Source: Actinomycetota bacterium
GTDB taxonomy: Bacteria; Actinomycetota; Actinomycetes; Streptosporangiales; Streptosporangiaceae
Direction of reading: 5' to 3'
DNA: 7,356 nt
Assembly (NCBI GenBank): GCA_003140115.1
Contig: PLIQ01000142.1
Span: 1 to 7,356, forward strand
Below are positions 1 through 7,356 of this stretch, piece by piece. Both the position numbers and the translations under genes were made by a program. Positions within the stretch are counted from its first letter, which is position 1; the number at the start of each line of letters is the position of its first letter. Under the pieces are notes generated by a model that was not told the origin of the DNA, searched no databases, and was given only the letters and a program-made list of their open reading frames with translations.

Positions 1-344
1 GCCCGGTGGCACCAGTAAACGGTCAGCGGGTTGAACACGTACCCGAACACCCGGGCCTGAGCGAGCATCAGCACCCGGCCACCGGCCAGGTCGACGTTTT
101 GCGACCGTAGGAAGCGGTCGAGGTTGGCCCTTATTGGCTGATTTGGGTCGCCCAGGTGGTCACGGCCGTGGAAACCCGCCAGCAGCCGCAGCCCCGGGCC
201 GAGCCGGGGCAGGTGGTCCAGGTCGACCAGCCACTGGTAGGTGCGGTAGGTGAACGCGTTGCTTAGCGGCGCCAGCCGGGTGTGGGTGATCCGGCATTCG
301 TACAGCGCGGCGCCCGGGGCCAGCGGGCGCGGGCCGGCCGTCAC
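1..344 (-). CDS. DUF1365 family protein (3' part cut by window edge)
   Basis: This is the first 114 codons of a DUF1365 (PF07103) protein; the C-terminal half lies beyond the window. The conserved family pattern is visible: YECRITHTRLAPLSNAFTYR near residues 15-34, WLVDLDHLP at 38-46, RDHLGDP at 61-67, and the signature GYVFNPLTVYWCH at 101-113. The start is a GTG whose GTGA overlaps the stop of the FAD oxidoreductase gene by four bases, so the two are probably translationally coupled. The biochemical role of DUF1365 is not well established. It recurs beside COG2907 oxidoreductases and cyclopropane-synthase-like methyltransferases in lipid-modification clusters, so a role in altering membrane fatty acids is inferred from context only. 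The family assignment is secure and the function is open. Confidence 0.9.
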   Translation of the reverse strand, partial: MTAGPRPLAPGAALYECRITHTRLAPLSNAFTYRTYQWLVDLDHLPRLGPGLRLLAGFHGRDHLGDPNQPIRANLDRFLRSQNVDLAGGRVLMLAQARVFGYVFNPLTVYWCHR

Positions 345-1612
345 CAGGTCCCTCCGAGCGCGCGGGCCGCCCGAGCCCCGGACCGGCAGCCGTCCTCGTG
401 AAAGCCCCAGCCGTGGTACGCGCCGGCGAACGCCGTGACCGGCGTGTTCAGCTCGGGCAGGCGGCCCTGCGCGAGGACCGACTCCGGCGTGTAGGCGGGA
501 TGCGCGTAGTCCATCTGGCTGATGACCTGGTCCGGATCGACAGCGCCACGGCCGTTCAGGGTCACGATGTAGTTTTTGCTGGCGGGCAGGCCCTGCAGCC
601 GGTTCATGTGGTAGCTGATCCGCACCGCCTCGCCCGGGTTGGCCCGGCAGTCGCCGAGCTCGTAGTTCCAGGAGGCCCGGACCGCGGGGGAATCCGGAAG
701 CAGCCGGGTGTCGGTGTGGAGCAGGGCCGGGTTCGGGGTGTAGCGGAAGGCACCCAGCACCTCCCGCTCGGCCGGGGTGGCCGGGGCGAGCAGGGCGAGG
801 GCCTGGTCCGGGTGGGTGGCGATGACCACCGCGTCGAACTGGTGGGCCTGGCCCGAGGCGTCCCGCACCTCGGCGCCGTCGGGGTAGCGGCGCACGGCGC
901 GGACCGGAGTGCCGAGCCGGACGCAGGCCAGCCGTTGCGCGACCCGGTCGACGTAGTGCCGGGAACCGCCGGCCACGGTGCGCCACGGGGGTGAGCCGGA
1001 CACCGACAGCATCCCGTGGTTGGCCAGGAAGGCGAACAGGTACCGGGCCGGGTACTCCTGCGCGGCGCCGGCCGGGCAGGACCACACCGCCGCGACCAGC
1101 GGCAGCGCGAAGTGGGCCTGGAAGTAGCCGGAATAGCCGCCGTGATCCAGAAACTCCCTGAAGGTGAGGTCGCCGGGCGCCGCGCGGTCGTCGTCTGCGG
1201 CCGTGTCGCCTGCCAGCAGCGCGCGGGCGGCGTGGTGGAAGCGGGGGACGTCGGCCAGCAGCCGCAGGAACCGGCCGCCGCCTCGGCGCAGGCCCGCGGC
1301 CAGTCCGCCCAGGCCCCGCTGGCCGGCGTAGTGCAGGCCGCAGCCCGCGCAGCGGACCGACATGCTCATCTCGGCGGCCCGGGTGCTCACTCCCAGCTCG
1401 GCGAACAGCCTGGTGAGCAGCGGGTAGGTACGCTCGTTGTAGACGATAAAGCCGGTGTCGACGGGGACCGGCCCGACCATATGGGTGTCGGCGTGGCCGC
1501 CCAGGCGGGGGTCGGCCTCGAACAGCGTGACCTGATCGGTGCGGGACAGGACGTAGCCCGCGGTCAGCCCGCTGATCCCGCCGCCGATGACGGCGATCCT
1601 GCGTCCGGTCAC
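341..1612 (-). CDS. FAD-dependent oxidoreductase, COG2907 / amine-oxidase-like
   Basis: A 423-residue flavoprotein of the amine oxidase/phytoene-desaturase-like fold. The N-terminus has the dinucleotide-binding motif VIGGGISG (residues 8-15), the ribose-binding acidic residue in FEAD (E32) and the RLGGHADT segment (36-43). DTGFIVYNERTYP (52-64) is characteristic of COG2907 proteins. The C-terminal FAD contact region FAGAYHGWGFHEDGCRSG spans 395-412. A CxxC pair (C88, C91) is present. There is no signal peptide or clear membrane span, so it is probably cytoplasmic or membrane-peripheral. The GTG start is preceded by a GGAAGGAAA ribosome-binding site and lies 34 bases after the upstream SDR gene; its stop overlaps the DUF1365 start. 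Family members sit in clusters with DUF1365 and CFA-synthase-like enzymes, and an unsaturated acyl chain is a plausible substrate by inference. The exact reaction cannot be read from the sequence. Confidence 0.88.
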   Translation of the reverse strand: MTGRRIAVIGGGISGLTAGYVLSRTDQVTLFEADPRLGGHADTHMVGPVPVDTGFIVYNERTYPLLTRLFAELGVSTRAAEMSMSVRCAGCGLHYAGQRGLGGLAAGLRRGGGRFLRLLADVPRFHHAARALLAGDTAADDDRAAPGDLTFREFLDHGGYSGYFQAHFALPLVAAVWSCPAGAAQEYPARYLFAFLANHGMLSVSGSPPWRTVAGGSRHYVDRVAQRLACVRLGTPVRAVRRYPDGAEVRDASGQAHQFDAVVIATHPDQALALLAPATPAEREVLGAFRYTPNPALLHTDTRLLPDSPAVRASWNYELGDCRANPGEAVRISYHMNRLQGLPASKNYIVTLNGRGAVDPDQVISQMDYAHPAYTPESVLAQGRLPELNTPVTAFAGAYHGWGFHEDGCRSGARAARALGGTW

Positions 1613-1646: not shown

Positions 1647-3038
1647 TTATTCGGGGCCGGCCGGGATCCGGATTGCCGGCCGCACCGCTGGCTCGCGTCC
1701 GAGCACGTGACCCAGGGCCGCCCCGAGCTCGGGGTAGCGGAAGTGGTGACCGGCGTCGATCAGCCGCTGCGGGCGGACGTACTGGCTGGCCTCGGCGAGC
1801 TCGCGGGCGCCTTCGCCGCCCAGCAGCAGCCGGGGACCGAGCGCGGGCACCGGGACCAGCGCGGGCCGGTGCAGCAGGCCGGCCAGCACAGCGGTGTAGT
1901 CGGCGTTGCGCACCGGGGCCGGGGCGACCGCGTTGACCGGTCCGGACAGGGCCGGGTCGAGCACCGCCCGCAGGTAGATGTCCAGCAGGTCGTCCAGGCC
2001 GATCCAGGCCAGCCACTGCTTGCCGCTGCCCAGCCGGCCGCCCAGGCCGGCCGCGAAGAGCGGGTACAGCAGGCGCAGCACGCCGCCGCGCGGGGTCTGC
2101 ACCAGGCCGGTGCGGACCTGCACGGTCCGCAGGCCGGCCCGGGCGGCCGGGGCGGTGGCGTCTTCCCAGTCGGCGACCACGTCGGCCAGGAACCCGTCGC
2201 CGCGGGCGCTGGTCTCGGTCAGCACCTCGTCGCCGCGATCGGGTCCGTAGATCCCGATCGCCGACGCCGTGACGAACGCCCGCAGGCCCGGTGCGCCGGT
2301 CTCGCGGCCAGCCGCGGCGAGCTCGGCCAGGCGGCGGGTCGGGATGATCCGGCTGTCGCGGATCTCCTGCTTGCGGCCGGCAGTGAACCGCCCGCCGATC
2401 GACGCCCCGGCCAGGTGGATCAGCGCATCCACGCCGCTCAGCAGTTCGGGCCCGGGATCATCGGGGCGCCAGTAGCGCTCCCCCGCGTGCCGCGGCAGCC
2501 GGCGGACCAGCCGGATGACCCGGTGGCCTCCGGTGCTCAGCAGCGCGGTCAGCGCGGTGCCGATCAGCCCGCCGGACCCGGTGACCGCGATCGTCAGCGG
2601 CTCCGGGGCGAGCTCCCGGGCGCGTGCCTGGGCGGCCAGGTCATCGGCCAGCTGCCGGTGCCGGTAGACGAACATGGGCCGCAGCATCCGGGCCGGCAGC
2701 GGCGTCTCGATCACGTCGGTGACGCGGGTGGCCCGCTGGCCCGCCGACGCGAACTGGTGGGTATGCCGCCACGACAGCACCGCCGACAACGGGAAGGAGG
2801 CCAGGACGTCGGCGAACTCGTGCGGCGGGTCGTACTCGCCGGGCTGGTGGGCGGCCACCCAGCGCAACCCGCCGGGCAACCGCAGCACGGTCTGCCCGTC
2901 CCGGACCGAGCCGGCCTCCCGTTCCACCTGGACCGGCTGCCAGGGCGGCATCAGCCGGGTGATGGCCCCCGGCCTGGCGTGCCAGGCGAACACCTCGCCC
3001 AGCGGTGCGTCGACCACGCTGGAGTAATTCAGTCCCAT
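1647..3038 (-). CDS. SRPBCC domain - TIGR01777 SDR epimerase-like fusion protein
   Basis: A 463-residue two-domain protein and the first gene of the minus-strand operon. Residues 1 to about 140 form an SRPBCC/polyketide-cyclase-like hydrophobic-pocket domain (starts LNYSSVVDAPLGEVFAWHARPGA). From about 148 an extended SDR domain begins with the Rossmann motif TGSGGLIG (153-160) and continues with LIHLAGASIGGRFT (206-219), the TIGR01777-typical SAIGIYG (259-265), and QWLAWIGLDDLLDIY (341-355). The C-terminus (about 415-447, EASQYVRPQRLIDAGHHFRYPEL) matches the DUF1731 tail of this family. The SRPBCC-plus-SDR fusion is a known architecture in actinobacteria. The ATG start has GGGGAGGG eight bases upstream. 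It probably binds and reduces or epimerises a hydrophobic substrate with NAD(P). The substrate is unknown; its place in the operon suggests a lipid or isoprenoid. Confidence 0.92.
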   Translation of the reverse strand: MGLNYSSVVDAPLGEVFAWHARPGAITRLMPPWQPVQVEREAGSVRDGQTVLRLPGGLRWVAAHQPGEYDPPHEFADVLASFPLSAVLSWRHTHQFASAGQRATRVTDVIETPLPARMLRPMFVYRHRQLADDLAAQARARELAPEPLTIAVTGSGGLIGTALTALLSTGGHRVIRLVRRLPRHAGERYWRPDDPGPELLSGVDALIHLAGASIGGRFTAGRKQEIRDSRIIPTRRLAELAAAGRETGAPGLRAFVTASAIGIYGPDRGDEVLTETSARGDGFLADVVADWEDATAPAARAGLRTVQVRTGLVQTPRGGVLRLLYPLFAAGLGGRLGSGKQWLAWIGLDDLLDIYLRAVLDPALSGPVNAVAPAPVRNADYTAVLAGLLHRPALVPVPALGPRLLLGGEGARELAEASQYVRPQRLIDAGHHFRYPELGAALGHVLGREPAVRPAIRIPAGPE

Positions 3039-3071: not shown

Positions 3072-3099
3072 TTGCCTTAAAACAATACTAAACTACACT
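3072..3099 (+). promoter_or_regulatory. Candidate promoter of the B12-binding regulator gene
   Basis: A -35-like TTGCCT (3072-3077) is separated by 16 bases from a -10-like TACACT (3094-3099). Each matches four of six positions of the housekeeping consensus. The start site would fall near 3106, leaving a leader of about 30 bases with a G-rich ribosome-binding site before the ATG at 3137. This was found by eye and has no experimental support. Confidence 0.4.
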
Positions 3100-3103
3100 A
3101 AAA
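3085..3103. repeat. Tandem ten-base direct repeat, unit ANACTAAA (candidate operator)
   Basis: ATACTAAAC at 3085-3093 and ACACTAAAA at 3095-3103 are imperfect direct copies exactly ten bases apart, so they lie on the same helical face. A weaker TTAAA copy lies at 3077-3081, and another TTAAA at 3112-3116. The two good copies cover the -10 boxes of both candidate divergent promoters. CarH of Thermus binds tandem direct repeats of about 11 bases as a tetramer, so this is a reasonable operator candidate for the adjacent regulator. Confidence 0.45.
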
Positions 3104-3136: not shown

Positions 3137-4270
3137 ATGCAGGTGCGTGAGGCCGCGGACACTCTCGGTGTGCACTACCAGACCGCCTACGCCTGGGTGC
3201 GGCAGGGCACGCTCCCCGCCCGGAAGACTGGCCGCGGTTACGACGTCAGCGACGATGACATCAGCGCGCTGGCCGAGCGCCGGGCCTCGGGCGCCCCGCC
3301 GCGGCCCGAGGTGCGGGTCCGCGACTGGTCGGTGCAGGCCGGCCGGCTGTACGACGCGATCGTGTCCGGCGACGAGACGCTGGCCCGGCATGATTTCGAC
3401 CGGCTGGCGCTCGGCGTGCCGCTGGTCGACCTGTGCGAGCGGGTCATCGCCCCCGCGCTGCGCCGGGTGGGCCAGGAATGGACCGTGGGCCGGCTCAGCA
3501 TCGCGACCGAGCACCGGGCCAGCGCCATCTGCGAGCGGCTCATCGCGGCCCGCGTGCACCAGCCGCCGGGCCGCCCGCGCGGGATCGCGGTGACCGCAAC
3601 GCCGCCCGGCGAACGGCACGCGCTGCCCGCGCTGATGGCGGCGGCCTGCCTGCGGGAGGATCGCTGGCTGGTGCACCACCTGGCCGCGGACCTGCCGGTC
3701 GCTGAGGTAGTCGGCCTGGCCCTGGAGGTCGGCGCGGACCTGGTGGTGCTGTCGTCGGCGACGGACCAGACGGCCCGGGCGGCCCGCCGGGCGGCTCGGG
3801 AGATCGGCTTGTCCGCGCCGCGGCTGCGCGTGCTGGCCGGCCGGCCCGGCGACAGCCTGAGCCGGCTGCGGGAGCTGGCCAGGGGCTTAGGACGGCCGGG
3901 TCAGCGGAGCGCGAACCGGTCGGCGAAGGCCGCGAGCTGGTCGCGCTGTTCGGACAGGTGGACCGAGGCGGGCGCGACCACCAGGCGGTCGGCCCCGCGG
4001 CCGGCGTGCTGGGCCACGTCCTCGGCGGTCATCTCGATCGACCCCCAGCGAGTGACCTGCAGCGCGTCGGGGTCGCGGCCCGCGTCCCGGGCGGCGGCCC
4101 GCATGAGCTTGAGCTGGCTGACCCGCTCGGCTTCGGTGAGCCGGCCACCGGGAAAGTACCCGTCACCGCGCCGCCCGGCCCGCCGGGCCGCGGCGGGGCT
4201 GGATCCGCCGACGTGCACCGGGAGCGGCTGGAGGGGCTTGGGGAAGCTGCACGCGGCGGCGAAGGAGTAG
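3137..4270 (+). CDS. CarH/LitR-type cobalamin-binding transcriptional regulator (as-sequenced frame has an aberrant tail)
   Basis: A one-component regulator. Residues 1 to about 48 form a short helix-turn-helix of the excisionase/MerR type (VREAADTLGVHYQTAYAWVRQGTLPARKTG), shorter than a classical MerR domain. Residues 60-145 match the four-helix bundle over cobalamin, with the CarH Wx9EH motif (W115, E125, H126). Residues 148-250 match the Rossmann-like B12 domain: E159xH161xxP164, then 41 residues to S206xA208, then 26 to G235R236. Spacings equal Thermus CarH (W131, E141, H142, H177), offset by 16. The residue after W115 is Thr, where Thermus CarH has His132. Homology ends near residue 250 (about 3886). 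The remaining 127 or so residues are Arg/Ser/Ala-rich, antisense to the oxidoreductase gene, and probably not genuine. A TAG at 3888 lies one frame away. It likely represses the divergent operon in the dark with adenosylcobalamin bound. Confidence 0.85.
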   Translation: MQVREAADTLGVHYQTAYAWVRQGTLPARKTGRGYDVSDDDISALAERRASGAPPRPEVRVRDWSVQAGRLYDAIVSGDETLARHDFDRLALGVPLVDLCERVIAPALRRVGQEWTVGRLSIATEHRASAICERLIAARVHQPPGRPRGIAVTATPPGERHALPALMAAACLREDRWLVHHLAADLPVAEVVGLALEVGADLVVLSSATDQTARAARRAAREIGLSAPRLRVLAGRPGDSLSRLRELARGLGRPGQRSANRSAKAASWSRCSDRWTEAGATTRRSAPRPACWATSSAVISIDPQRVTCSASGSRPASRAAARMSLSWLTRSASVSRPPGKYPSPRRPARRAAAGLDPPTCTGSGWRGLGKLHAAAKE

Positions 4271-4749
4271 AACTCGCCGTCGAAGCTGACGCCGTTCTCG
4301 TCACCCGCCCACAGCAGGCGCAGTGCGTCGATGGCCTCGTCGGCGCGGCGGCCGCGGGTCGCGTAGTCGACGCCGACCGCCGCCGCCTCGCCCGGCAGGC
4401 TGCCCACCCCGATGGTCAGCAGCCGCATCCGGCCCTTGGACAGCACGTCGATGGTGGCCAGCCGCTTGGCCAGCACCACCGGCTCGTGATAGGGCAGCAG
4501 CAGGACCCCGGTGCCGAGCAGGATCCGCTCGGTCGCGGCGGCCACGAAGCTCAGGCACTCGAGCGGGTCGGCGATCGGCAGGTCGGCCGGGAAGGTCATC
4601 GCGCCGACGCTCGCGCCGGGGTACAGGGCGACGTGCTCAGGCAGGTAGAAGGACTCGAAGCCGCAGGCCTCGGCGTGCCGGGCGAGCGCGATCAGCGCGC
4701 CCGGGTCGACGCCGTAGCTGCCGGTGTTGTAGTGGACGCCGAACTTCAC
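3901..4749 (-). CDS. LLM-class flavin-dependent oxidoreductase, probably F420-type (TIGR03619-like)
   Basis: A 282-residue luciferase-like monooxygenase-fold protein. Family features are FGVHYNTGSYGVDPGALIALARHAEACGFESFYLPEH (3-39), TERILLGTGVLLLPYHEPVVLAKRLATIDVLSKGRM (73-108, typical of Rv2161c-like F420 enzymes), LLTIGVGSLPGE (110-121), and LPVHVGGSSPAAARRAGRRGDGYFPGG (176-202). The GTG start has GGGAGG seven bases upstream and overlaps the cbiZ stop by four bases, so the pair forms one translationally coupled unit. The longer open frame extending upstream to 6459 is rejected because it runs antisense to gpgS and out of frame through cbiZ. Members use reduced F420 or flavin on diverse substrates, and the substrate here is unknown. 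The strict coupling to CbiZ hints at a link with corrinoid metabolism, but that is inference. The gene converges on the regulator gene with essentially no gap. Confidence 0.88.
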   Translation of the reverse strand: MKFGVHYNTGSYGVDPGALIALARHAEACGFESFYLPEHVALYPGASVGAMTFPADLPIADPLECLSFVAAATERILLGTGVLLLPYHEPVVLAKRLATIDVLSKGRMRLLTIGVGSLPGEAAAVGVDYATRGRRADEAIDALRLLWAGDENGVSFDGEFYSFAAACSFPKPLQPLPVHVGGSSPAAARRAGRRGDGYFPGGRLTEAERVSQLKLMRAAARDAGRDPDALQVTRWGSIEMTAEDVAQHAGRGADRLVVAPASVHLSEQRDQLAAFADRFALR

Positions 4750-5405
4750 TGGGTCCTCCCGTTGAGCGTGGCGGCGTAGCCGGCCGCCCCGGTGTGGACG
4801 GCGGCGTGCACGGCCCGCGCGATCCGGGCCCCCCACACAGAGCGCGGGCCGGTGAATTCTTCTTCCCGGTCCGCGGCGCGAATGGGCGCGGCGACGCACA
4901 CGGCGTCGGTGGCGGTCCCGGTGCCGGCGAATCCGGCGTCCAGGACGGCCTGTACTTTGGCCTCGGTGGCGGTGGCGACCGCGTTGACGAAGGCCGCGTC
5001 GGTGAGCGGCACCGGCAGGGCGACGATGATGTTGATCGTGCCCGCCAGTTCGGGGTCCGTGCGGCCCGGCGGGGCCGCGGCCCAGGTCGGGACGCTCAGC
5101 CCGACGGTGACGGCGGCGTGCGCCCCCTCGTCCTGACGCTGGACCAGGCCGGTGACCTGCGCCGCGGTCAGCAGGCCGATCCCGGGCCCGGTCAGGCCCA
5201 GGTCGCGGGCCAGCTCGCGCAGGTGCTCGGCCGGGTCGGTGCGGGCGTAGCCGGCCGGGACCTGGGCGTTGAGCACCCACTCGCGCGGGCCGAGGCCGCC
5301 GCCCAGCACGCCGGTGGAGATCATCCGGTAGCCAGGTCCCGGGCGCCACAGCGCCATCGGCAGCCGCACGCCATCCTCGGTGCGCCAATGCTGGTGCAGC
5401 CGCAT
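4746..5405 (-). CDS. cbiZ: Adenosylcobinamide amidohydrolase CbiZ
   Basis: A 219-residue protein of the CbiZ family (PF01955). CbiZ cleaves the aminopropanol amide of adenosylcobinamide to give adenosylcobyric acid, which re-enters late cobalamin synthesis; this is the salvage route of archaea and some bacteria. Conserved blocks are MISTGVLGGGLGPREWVLNAQVP (28-50), IGLLTAAQV (76-84), DEGAHAAVTVGLSVP (92-106), GTINIIVALPVPLTDAAFVNAVATATEAK (122-150), GTGTATDAVCVAAP (161-174) and the C-terminal FTGPRSVWGARIARAVHAAV (184-203). The ATG at 5405 is preferred because a purine-rich AGAAAGAAA lies just upstream and family homology begins soon after. A GTG at 5435 would add ten unremarkable residues. 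No signal peptide is seen. No cobalamin riboswitch B12 box (GCCACTG) is evident upstream. The gene overlaps the downstream oxidoreductase by four bases and lies beside a cobalamin-binding regulator. Confidence 0.9.
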   Translation of the reverse strand: MRLHQHWRTEDGVRLPMALWRPGPGYRMISTGVLGGGLGPREWVLNAQVPAGYARTDPAEHLRELARDLGLTGPGIGLLTAAQVTGLVQRQDEGAHAAVTVGLSVPTWAAAPPGRTDPELAGTINIIVALPVPLTDAAFVNAVATATEAKVQAVLDAGFAGTGTATDAVCVAAPIRAADREEEFTGPRSVWGARIARAVHAAVHTGAAGYAATLNGRTQ

Positions 5406-5510
5406 GCTGGTTTCTTTCTGGGGGGCGGATACCACGGACCGTTCGGCATAAAAATGCTAGCCGATTTACCGGGCGGAAACAGGGCTTTACGTGGCCACAA
5501 CAATGGCGGG

Positions 5511-5524
5511 CTATTCCGGAATAG
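5511..5524. repeat. Perfect 14-base palindrome upstream of gpgS
   Basis: CTATTCCGGAATAG is a perfect palindrome with no central spacer. It lies 36 bases before the preferred gpgS start, a typical position for a dimeric regulator site. Its GGAAT half is repeated at 5546-5550 inside the next inverted repeat. Binding by any protein is inference. Confidence 0.4.
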
Positions 5525-5541
5525 TTGAGTCCGGCACGGGG

Positions 5542-5556
5542 AAACGGAATCCGTTT
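5542..5556. repeat. Inverted repeat AAACGG-AAT-CCGTTT just before gpgS start
   Basis: Six-base arms AAACGG and CCGTTT flank the triplet AAT and end four bases before the ATG at 5560. The element overlaps the likely ribosome-binding zone (GGGGAAACGGA, 5538-5548), so occupancy or hairpin formation could limit translation. The three-base loop makes a stable RNA hairpin doubtful; a DNA-binding site is equally possible. Confidence 0.35.
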
Positions 5557-5559
5557 TAC

Positions 5560-6534
5560 ATGGACATGACGGTGTGGGAATGGTTCGGGCGGCGCTCGTT
5601 TCGGCACCCGGATTACCGCGGGCTGGTGGCCGGGGGCCGGACCACCACGTTGATCCTCCCGGCGCGCAACGTCGCGGCGACGATCGGGCCGATCCTCGAT
5701 TCCGTCGCGGGGCTGCGGGCCCGGACCGGCCTGCCCGGCCAGGTCGTGGTGGTGGACGCGGACTCGCCGGACGGCACGGCCGATATCGCCCGCGCGCACG
5801 GCGCGGAGGTGTACTCCGAGAATGAACTGCTGCCCGAGTACGGGCCCGCCCAGGGCAAGGGCGACGCGATGTGGCGGGGTCTTTCGGTGGCGCGCGGCGA
5901 CATCGTGATGTTCGCCGACACCGACACCGCGGATTTCGGCGAGCATTTCGTCTACGGCACCCTCGGGCCGCTGCTCGCCGATCCCGGGATCCGGTTCTGC
6001 AAGGCCGCCTACCGGCGGCCGTACGCGGCGGGCGAGAAGTCCGTCGTAGACGGCGGCGGCCGGGTGACCGAGCTGATGGCCAAGCCGCTGCTCAACCGGT
6101 TCTACCCCGAGCTGGCCGGGTTCGTGCAGCCGCTGGCCGGGGAATTCGCGGCGCACCGGGAGTTGCTGGCCAACCTGCCGTTCCTGACCGGGTACGGGGT
6201 GGAGATCGGGCTGCTGGTCGACGTGCTGGCCGCGGTCGGCCTGGCGGCGATGGCTCAGGTCGACCTCGGTGTCAGGCAGAACCGGCACCAGCCGCTGCGG
6301 GAGCTGGCCAAGATGAGCTCGGTCGTCCTGCGCGCGATGTCGCTGCGGGTTCCCGCGCTGGAGCGGGAGCCGCCGACACCCGGCCTGTGGGGGCTGCGCC
6401 AGCCGGAGATCTACCTGCACGCGGTGGCCACCGAGGACGGGCTGCGGCTCGACGAGCACCTCACCGACGTGCTCGAGAGGCCGGCCCTGGCCCGGGTGAG
6501 CAGCGGCGACCTGATCCCGGACTTGCTCTGGTGA
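5560..6534 (+). CDS. gpgS: Glucosyl-3-phosphoglycerate synthase-like glycosyltransferase (GT81)
   Basis: A 324-residue GT-A glycosyltransferase, the length of mycobacterial GpgS. GpgS transfers glucose from an NDP-glucose to 3-phosphoglycerate, the first step to glucosylglycerate and methylglucose lipopolysaccharides. Visible motifs are TTTLILPARNVAATIGPILDS (28-48, nucleotide-sugar binding), VVVVDADSPDGT (62-73), YSENELLPEYGPAQGKGDAMWRGL (85-108), the metal-binding DxD in FADTDTADF (D120, D122), FVQPLAGEFAAHR (188-200), GYGVEIGLLVD (211-221), and RQNRHQPLREL (239-249). I chose ATG 5560 over GTG 5491 because homology starts there, a GGGGAAACGGA ribosome-binding zone precedes it, and the longer form would place two inverted repeats inside the coding region. 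One oddity is NVAA where the family usually has NEE. No phosphatase partner gpgP is in view. GT81 assignment is firm; the exact acceptor is less so. Confidence 0.88.
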   Translation: MDMTVWEWFGRRSFRHPDYRGLVAGGRTTTLILPARNVAATIGPILDSVAGLRARTGLPGQVVVVDADSPDGTADIARAHGAEVYSENELLPEYGPAQGKGDAMWRGLSVARGDIVMFADTDTADFGEHFVYGTLGPLLADPGIRFCKAAYRRPYAAGEKSVVDGGGRVTELMAKPLLNRFYPELAGFVQPLAGEFAAHRELLANLPFLTGYGVEIGLLVDVLAAVGLAAMAQVDLGVRQNRHQPLRELAKMSSVVLRAMSLRVPALEREPPTPGLWGLRQPEIYLHAVATEDGLRLDEHLTDVLERPALARVSSGDLIPDLLW

Positions 6535-6592: not shown

Positions 6593-7356
6593 ATGCACGT
6601 CGTAGGGTTGATGCTGCATCCGGAACGAGACTGCGGCGGGGCGGTGGCCTCGGTGCTGGACTGGGCCGATCAGCGCGGGATCGAGGTCCTCGGCATCGAC
6701 AGCCAGCTGTCCAAGCTGGCCTGCACGGCCACTCCGGTGTCCCCCGAGGAACTGCGGCAGCGCGCCGACCTGCTGGTTAGCATGGGCGGCGACGGTACCA
6801 TGCTGCGGGCCATGCGGCTGGCCGACCGGCAACGGTTCCCGGTGCTGGGGGTGAACCTGGGCAAGCTGGGCTTCCTGGCCGAGGTGGACGTGCCCGACCT
6901 GCCCGCCGCGCTGTCCGCGATCGACGGCCACGACTTCACCACCGAACCCCGGCTGGCGGTCGACGCGATCATCGGGGACCGGACCATCACGGCGTTCAAC
7001 GACATCGCGATCGTCCGGTTCCCAGGCCACAAGGTGGCTAGCGTCGCGGTACGCGCCGCGGGGTACCCGTTCGTCAGCTACGCCGCCGACGCGATCGTGG
7101 TCGCGACGCCGACCGGCTCGACCGCGTACAGCTTCTCGGCGGGCGGCCCCATCGTCAGCCCGGGGGTGGAGGCCCTGGTGGTCACGCCGGTCGCGCCGCA
7201 CTCGGCCTACAACCGCGGGCTGGTCATCTCGTGTGCGGATCAGCTGGGGCTGGACATCCTGCCGAGCAGCGGCAGGCTGGCCGTGGAGGCCGACGGCATC
7301 GCGGCCGCCGACGTCGGGCCCGGCGACCAGATCGAGCTGATCTCGCGTCCCGGTGC
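6593..7356 (+). CDS. nadK: NAD kinase (3' end cut by window edge)
   Basis: An open frame of 254 codons running off the window. It encodes an ATP- or polyphosphate-dependent NAD kinase, which makes NADP in the cytoplasm. Diagnostic motifs are present and in order: MGGDGTMLRAMR (64-75, catalytic GGDGT), NLGKLGFLAEVD (88-99), FNDIAIVR (135-142), the NAD-binding TPTGSTAYSFSAGGPIVSP (172-190), and VTPVAPHSAYNRGLVIS (about 196-212). The N-terminus MHVVGLMLHPERD matches the usual short N-terminal strand of the family, supporting ATG 6593. Homologues are about 280-320 residues, so only a short C-terminal segment is missing. It follows gpgS on the same strand after 58 bases. Co-transcription is possible, but the TAGCGT box next to the ATG suggests its own leaderless promoter. 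Confidence 0.95.
   Translation, partial: MHVVGLMLHPERDCGGAVASVLDWADQRGIEVLGIDSQLSKLACTATPVSPEELRQRADLLVSMGGDGTMLRAMRLADRQRFPVLGVNLGKLGFLAEVDVPDLPAALSAIDGHDFTTEPRLAVDAIIGDRTITAFNDIAIVRFPGHKVASVAVRAAGYPFVSYAADAIVVATPTGSTAYSFSAGGPIVSPGVEALVVTPVAPHSAYNRGLVISCADQLGLDILPSSGRLAVEADGIAAADVGPGDQIELISRPG

Follow-up and report, generated by a model that had tools for sequence, protein, structure and literature searches.

Does a B12-domain regulator that has no histidine opposite His132 of Thermus CarH (TtCarH) still sense light, and which genes would it control? The question is raised by a regulator gene in the 7,356-nucleotide stretch of actinobacterial DNA analysed here (the window; contig PLIQ01000142.1, Table 1). 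Its preliminary description left two alternatives: a light sensor whose state after photolysis is unlike that of TtCarH, or a corrinoid sensor that no longer depends on light. The first of these is favoured below, since 120 homologues vary little or not at all in the AdoCbl-linked residues and light or lipid genes neighbour the regulator in 9 of 12 loci; the surprise attached to the missing histidine did not stand. We conclude that the protein probably senses light via vitamin B12 and controls light-protective membrane lipid genes.

Table 1. Features of the window (residues are numbered from ATG 3137)
Feature	Position	Strand	Remarks
DUF1365 protein	1-356	-	UfaO-like by domain; gene cut by window edge, start codon not fixed
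FAD-dependent oxidoreductase (amino-oxidase family)	341-1612	-	UfaD-like by domain and gene order
TIGR01777 oxidoreductase	1647-3038	-	First gene of divergent operon; N-terminal stretch weakly SRPBCC-like (Polyketide_cyc, below cut-off)
Proposed operator	3079-3101	+	Core ACTAAACTACACTAA (3087-3101) with an A/T-rich flank; TAA steps spaced by ~10 bp; contains -10-like TACACT
Regulator, conserved body (residues 1-250)	3137-3886	+	Excisionase-type HTH, four-helix B12 cap, B12 Rossmann domain
HTH_17/excisionase-type DNA-binding domain (residues 3-49)	3143-3283	+	Pfam HTH_17, NCBIfam TIGR01764
B12-binding_2, four-helix cap (residues 70-138)	3344-3550	+	Includes W115, T116, E125, H126; Pfam, phmmer
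W115 and T116 codons	3479-3484	+	T116 opposite TtCarH His132; phmmer alignment
B12-binding Rossmann domain (residues 151-235)	3587-3841	+	Includes H161; Pfam, phmmer
LLM oxidoreductase (TIGR03619 F420-type)	3901-4752	-	Convergent with regulator, beside CbiZ
CbiZ, adenosylcobinamide amidohydrolase (corrinoid salvage)	4746-5435	-	Two genes from regulator
Glucosyl-3-phosphoglycerate synthase	5491-6534	+	NF010496, above cut-off; ordinary gene
NAD kinase	6593-7354	+	Cut by window edge; ordinary gene

The regulator gene and its protein

The gene had been described as ending at 3890, but TAG 3888-3890 does not lie in the frame of ATG 3137, so a stop there was rejected; the frame stays open to 4270 and encodes 377 amino acids. 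Its last part, past residue 250 (3887-4270, + strand), includes 370 bases antisense to the convergent LLM gene, and the 377-residue frame has no Pfam match beyond residue 235. Most of the homologues listed end at about 250-262 amino acids, and we therefore take residues 1-250 as the conserved protein. One homologue, P0003 (94% identical), has the same 377-residue length and the same final 15 residues as the window regulator.

The homologue counts given below refer to 120 listed homologues (1397 were found, from 7995 scored); the close homologues listed come mainly from JGI and ENA sources. Eleven further family members, 57-74% identical, were found in 10 of 345 genomes of the order to which the Trebonia kvetii genome belongs. 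The excisionase type of the helix-turn-helix held good, as the HTH matches both Pfam HTH_17 and NCBIfam TIGR01764 ("excise") and no MerR model is among its matches listed at E <= 0.001. The B12-binding model PF02310 is passed narrowly by the window regulator (33.7 bits versus a cut-off of 32.1), and its cut-off is missed by the regulators of L041 and L044.

The B12 site

The phmmer match of the regulator to TtCarH (3whp) has an E value of 3.6e-15, so the alignment is not a chance one. In it W115, E125, H126 and H161 stand opposite TtCarH W131, E141, H142 and H177 at a constant offset of 16, as had been claimed, which places H161 opposite the lower cobalt ligand, His177. The ExHxxP loop (E159-R-H161-A-L-P164) and the GR in place of GG (G235-R236) were likewise borne out by translation from ATG 3137. 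G112, W115, E125, H126, H161, P187 and S206 are kept in 120 of 120 listed homologues, P164 in 119 and E159 in 118, and the Wx9EH motif (W115...E125-H126) is present in the window regulator and in all 120.

Published motifs fit the protein in part. Of the strict motif ExHx2G-x41-SxV/T-x22-27-GG it keeps ExH and S206, and reads ExHxxP, S206-S-A and GR for the rest; proline for the glycine of ExHxxG is also found in 18 of 20 photocobilin-type domains. Of the SignatureFinder B12 photoreceptor signature, GxxW (G112-W115), EH (E125-H126) and GxxH (G158-H161) are present, the glycine of GxxH varying within the family (it is alanine in P0013 and P0031, for example). The GxxxP element reads A183xxxP187, and residue 183 is A in 112, S in seven and G in one of the 120 listed homologues; applied strictly, the published GxxxP signature would thus be expected to overlook the window family.

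Two cysteines, C100 (3434-3436) and C132 (3530-3532), are invariant in the 120 listed family members. When the three commonest letters per position are considered, cysteine occurs at the C100 position in 3 of 24 MerR-type rows and at the C132 position in 1 of 20 photocobilin-type rows. Their role is perhaps redox or that of a cobalt ligand.

Taken as a pattern of residues, the family looks like one that has retained its AdoCbl site, even though PF02310 barely passes its cut-off. Might the domain instead be kept for oligomer shape, with the switch set by something else, as in a B12-independent regulator of the CarA kind? The lack of GxxxP and of the strict ExHxxG...GG residues and the weak PF02310 score fit such a protein, but the presence of Wx9EH in every listed homologue makes it very improbable, as the absence of Wx9EH is said to explain the B12 independence of CarA (PMC8156234).

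The residue after the tryptophan

The phmmer alignment agrees with the preliminary description that the regulator has no histidine at the position following the tryptophan (W+1). Is that unusual, as was implied? The residue at W+1 in the 120 listed homologues is A (112), T (3), E (2), V (2) or S (1) and never H; in more distant relatives of the same order, where 21 of 22 loci are readable, it is A in 17 and E in four. The actinobacterial CarH-like proteins were sampled from 296 genomes of the phylum, of which 69 matched the CarH model; 30 loci were fetched and 29 had a readable motif. Two of these 29 have histidine at W+1, the full tally being A 7, E 6, Q 5, K 3, S 2, H 2, R 2, L 1 and M 1. 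By alignment, the characterised B12 photoreceptors SasPCob, AbDPcob and CtMerR have Gln, Tyr and Arg, respectively. With histidine absent from 120 of 120 listed homologues, 21 of 21 distant relatives and 27 of 29 CarH-like proteins, we rejected the idea that its absence is an oddity: a missing W+1 histidine is ordinary among such sensors.

CtMerR, with its Arg, is a demonstrated B12 photoreceptor whose AdoCbl-bound tetramer becomes a monomer in light, and in its anaerobic light structure Glu166 bridges to cobalt via water (PMC11796333). A "semi-conserved histidine" of LitR is the title topic of reference 27 in PMC9758184. The need for the upper histidine is disputed, as two published results for TtCarH H132A conflict: PMC10442372 describes the mutant protein as staying largely a tetramer after illumination, and refers to an earlier report in which it disassembles. 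A natural histidine-less group of about 250 residues with a candidate operator (below) makes this question testable, and the family may provide a compact green-light switch.

Relationship to other B12-binding domains

The main tree of B12-binding domains has 63 rows (18 of the family, 20 photocobilin-type and 24 MerR-type, TtCarH among the latter) and is unrooted. L021 and L077 were omitted as having no readable motif, and L016 and L080-L087 for long or doubtful branches. The family, the photocobilin-type and the MerR-type domains each occupy one side of a branch (100/98, 99/98 and 98/94, respectively), so that in this unrooted tree the family's domain does not group with CarH/LitR but lies on a separate side (100/98 versus 98/94). 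In a larger, likewise unrooted tree, from which only L021 and L077 were omitted, the family (100/99) and the MerR-type set (100/92) hold, and two changes are required for the photocobilin set, owing to the long-branched L016. CtMerR falls on the MerR side with a long branch, and a match to SasPCob over residues 8-321 (E 4.9e-77) was found for L024, a member of the photocobilin set.

The NCBIfam CarH equivalog NF052513 gives the regulator 71.1 bits against a cut-off of 400; this is a narrow test, since its cut-off is passed by none of 296 actinobacterial genomes and none of 14 controls. By its anatomy the regulator would work as CarH does, but it is not filed as one. To judge from these alignments and trees, the family appears to be a new group with an excisionase-type HTH, separate from the CarH-like and photocobilin-type domains that were sampled. 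A search of the open-licence literature found no paper on a B12-binding-domain photoreceptor with an excisionase.

Neighbouring genes

Which genes accompany the regulator? Neighbour annotation covered chosen ORFs, so a neighbour recorded as present is surer than one recorded as absent. Furan-fatty-acid-type genes, a photolyase or a heliorhodopsin adjoin the regulator in 9 of the 12 loci. An FAD oxidoreductase and a DUF1365 gene, divergent from it and adjacent or one gene off, occur in six (the window, L037, L038, L040, L046 and L047); a CMAS methyltransferase gene comes next in L037, L038, L046 and L047 (the L040 sequence and the window end there), and a TIGR01777 gene is found in the window, L037, L045 and L047. 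According to PMC7380195, an NAD/FAD domain is predicted in UfaD, UfaO belongs to DUF1365 and UfaM is the furan-fatty-acid SAM methylase; judged by domains and gene order, the operons beside the regulator may make furan fatty acid. A search of the open-licence literature for CarH together with furan had one relevant paper among the matches listed (PMC9758184).

The photolyase is the next gene on the same strand as the regulator in L041, and in L045 about 2.6 kb, including a TudS-DUF1722 gene, separates it from the regulator; such genes (RudS) are described as often lying within light-responsive operons (PMC11417400). A heliorhodopsin gene is divergent from the regulator in L036; a heliorhodopsin survey gives a MerR regulator and photolyase among the frequent neighbours, and the text of it available to us reports no B12 photosensor (PMC11109279). 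In L039, L042 and L043 no gene of the light-linked or furan-fatty-acid-type sets that we sought turned up among the annotated ORFs. L041 (10281-12516) and L043 (10006-12171) each have, divergent from the regulator, two tandem nitroreductase-like genes and a response regulator, a dormancy- or redox-type set of which L041 10281-11294 matches the Acg family (NF047509).

The LLM gene recurs beside the regulator only in L045 among the 12 fetched loci. CbiZ was rejected as a regular partner because no match to it is listed in the 12 fetched relatives' loci.

The chief rival explanation is a light-independent corrinoid sensor, which would report the supply of AdoCbl or cobinamide and set the neighbouring genes by it. 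CbiZ in the window, the retention of every B12-contact residue and the lack of a histidine for a bis-His light state are all as such a sensor would have them, but the relatives' loci list no CbiZ, light and lipid photoprotection genes lie beside the regulator in nine of the 12 loci, and the Trp and Glu that hold the adenosyl group in CarH are invariant. We regard this explanation as unlikely.

A candidate operator

The 220 bases upstream of 12 family genes were searched for the best 15-mer with up to three mismatches (L044, 36% identical, was omitted from this promoter test). It is present in 12 of 12 family promoters, whereas 100 dinucleotide shuffles gave 2.8 on average and never more than 4, and in the window it ends 35 bases 5' of the regulator ATG. 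The consensus over 13 sites (the 12 and one SRPBCC site, below) is about AAATCAAT-ACTAAATTACACTAA, and A-A steps at -7/-6, +3/+4 and +13/+14 across these sites give it a 10-bp period. The TACACT within it is a possible -10 element, in which case the motif would overlap a promoter.

The pattern RCTAARBTASRCTAA occurs 10 times in the 345 genomes, in 9 of the 10 regulator genomes and 0 of the 335 others; its reversed control is found 20 times, spread over 19 genomes that all lack the regulator. Nine of the 10 exact sites precede a regulator, which is circular as evidence since the pattern was built from family promoters; the evidence that is not circular is the absence of the exact pattern from the 335 other genomes, and the SRPBCC sites. 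The tenth exact site (in G034) lies upstream of an SRPBCC gene, its end 40 bp from the ATG. When one mismatch is allowed, 16 sites occur in 10 genomes versus 15 for the reversed control, so that the motif is no commoner, and for this reason we give weight only to the exact sites and to the SRPBCC pair. The one-mismatch additions include the regulator's own site in G052, three sites with no A/T flank, and a site before the SRPBCC gene of G338, which is orthologous to that of G034 (58% identical) and 62% identical to the SRPBCC gene adjoining the L038 regulator.

A further one-mismatch, operator-like site lies before an ECF sigma and RskA-type anti-sigma gene pair in G001 (L091 1501-2962); it may belong to the regulon or be there by chance. 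An ECF/RskA pair also lies 3' of the regulator in L039, its sigma factor 34% identical to that of L091/G001. Should 3087-3101 then be read as the promoter of a dedicated sigma factor and not as the regulator's operator? The -10-like TACACT and these two gene pairs point that way, but an ECF sigma gene was identified beside the regulator in only one of 12 loci (partially annotated), and the motif is a single contiguous periodic stretch that precedes the regulator in 12 of 12; we think such a reading of the motif decidedly unlikely.

The TtCarH target is described as three 11-bp direct repeats (PMC8156234). A promoter tiled by the TtCarH repeat nAnnTnnACAn was rejected: 13 upstream stretches have two isolated matches to it and no tandem run.

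A model for the switch

Our preferred explanation, which we hold to be reasonably probable, is that the regulator is an AdoCbl-dependent dark repressor that is released by light without bis-His ligation and controls membrane photoprotection, in a group distinct from the sampled CarH/LitR proteins. Conservation of the sensor residues, the conserved motif and gene linkage support it, and from these we infer B12 binding, the light response, the change of oligomer and the sign of regulation. The switch would work as follows: in the dark AdoCbl would be bound with H161 below the cobalt and its adenosyl group gripped by W115 and E125, and protomers would join head to tail, their excisionase-type HTHs occupying the ~10 bp direct repeats of the proposed operator. 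The bound site would cover the regulator's own -10-like element and adjoin the divergent furan-fatty-acid-type operon, so that both would be repressed. Light would cleave the Co-C bond; with no histidine at W+1, the upper cobalt site might take water, hydroxide or a water bridged by Glu125 (compare CtMerR, above), and the assembly would dissociate, turning the photoprotection genes on.

Several results speak against this dark-repressor model: GxxxP and the strict ExHxxG...GG are lacking, PF02310 is marginal, three loci show none of the light or lipid genes sought, a TtCarH H132A protein that stays mostly tetrameric in light has been reported, and the one-mismatch motif is at control level. If the model is true, light reaches furan-fatty-acid-type membrane genes directly via B12, bypassing both the LOV partner and the ChrR-linked control known elsewhere. 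More tentatively, the family may be a separately assembled class in which an excisionase-type HTH, an AdoCbl light-sensing domain and a dedicated operator of ~10-bp period are combined, switching without bis-His ligation, perhaps via Glu125/His126 or Cys100/Cys132, and in soil actinobacteria placing genes of the furan-fatty-acid type, together with those for photolyase and heliorhodopsin, directly under the control of light.

Comparison with known systems

With CarH and class I LitR (TtCarH; PDB 3WHP, 5C8A, 5C8D-F) the window protein shares the arrangement of HTH, four-helix cap and Rossmann B12 domain, Wx9EH and the lower-ligand histidine at identical spacing, and a direct-repeat target over a likely promoter (a candidate operator here). 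It differs from them in its excisionase-type HTH (no MerR-type DNA-binding domain was found), in having no W+1 histidine, and in reading ExHxxP, AxxxP and GR. The repeats are ~10 bp in the window family and 11 bp in CarH, the linked genes are furan-fatty-acid-type and carotenoid genes, respectively, and the trees separate the two groups.

CtMerR (PDB 8JBS/8JBT) also has no histidine at W+1 (its Arg accompanies a dark tetramer that becomes a light monomer), but its chain is longer (327 amino acids) and its match to the regulator (E 8.1e-13) is weaker than that of TtCarH. Photocobilins (SasPCob and AbDPcob; PDB 8J2W-8J2Y) resemble the window protein in having no W+1 histidine and mostly ExHxxP, but in them a C-terminal bilin-binding region is present and an HTH is missing; their structures match the window protein at residues 71-211 only, and no C-terminal bilin-binding domain was found in it.

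Class II LitR of Pseudomonas (PmlR/PplR) is similar in what it controls, being described as running a light-responsive set of photolyase, SDR, FAD oxidoreductase and UfaM, and different in mechanism, since it retains the four-helix bundle alone, is believed not to be a B12 binder and acts under the control of a short LOV protein (PMC9758184). BldC has a small MerR/Xis-like HTH like that of the window protein and is described as binding short direct repeats of 9 bp head-to-tail (PMC5859096), an arrangement that is only proposed for the window protein; unlike BldC, which has no sensor domain, the window protein has sensor domains and a motif with a period of ~10 bp.
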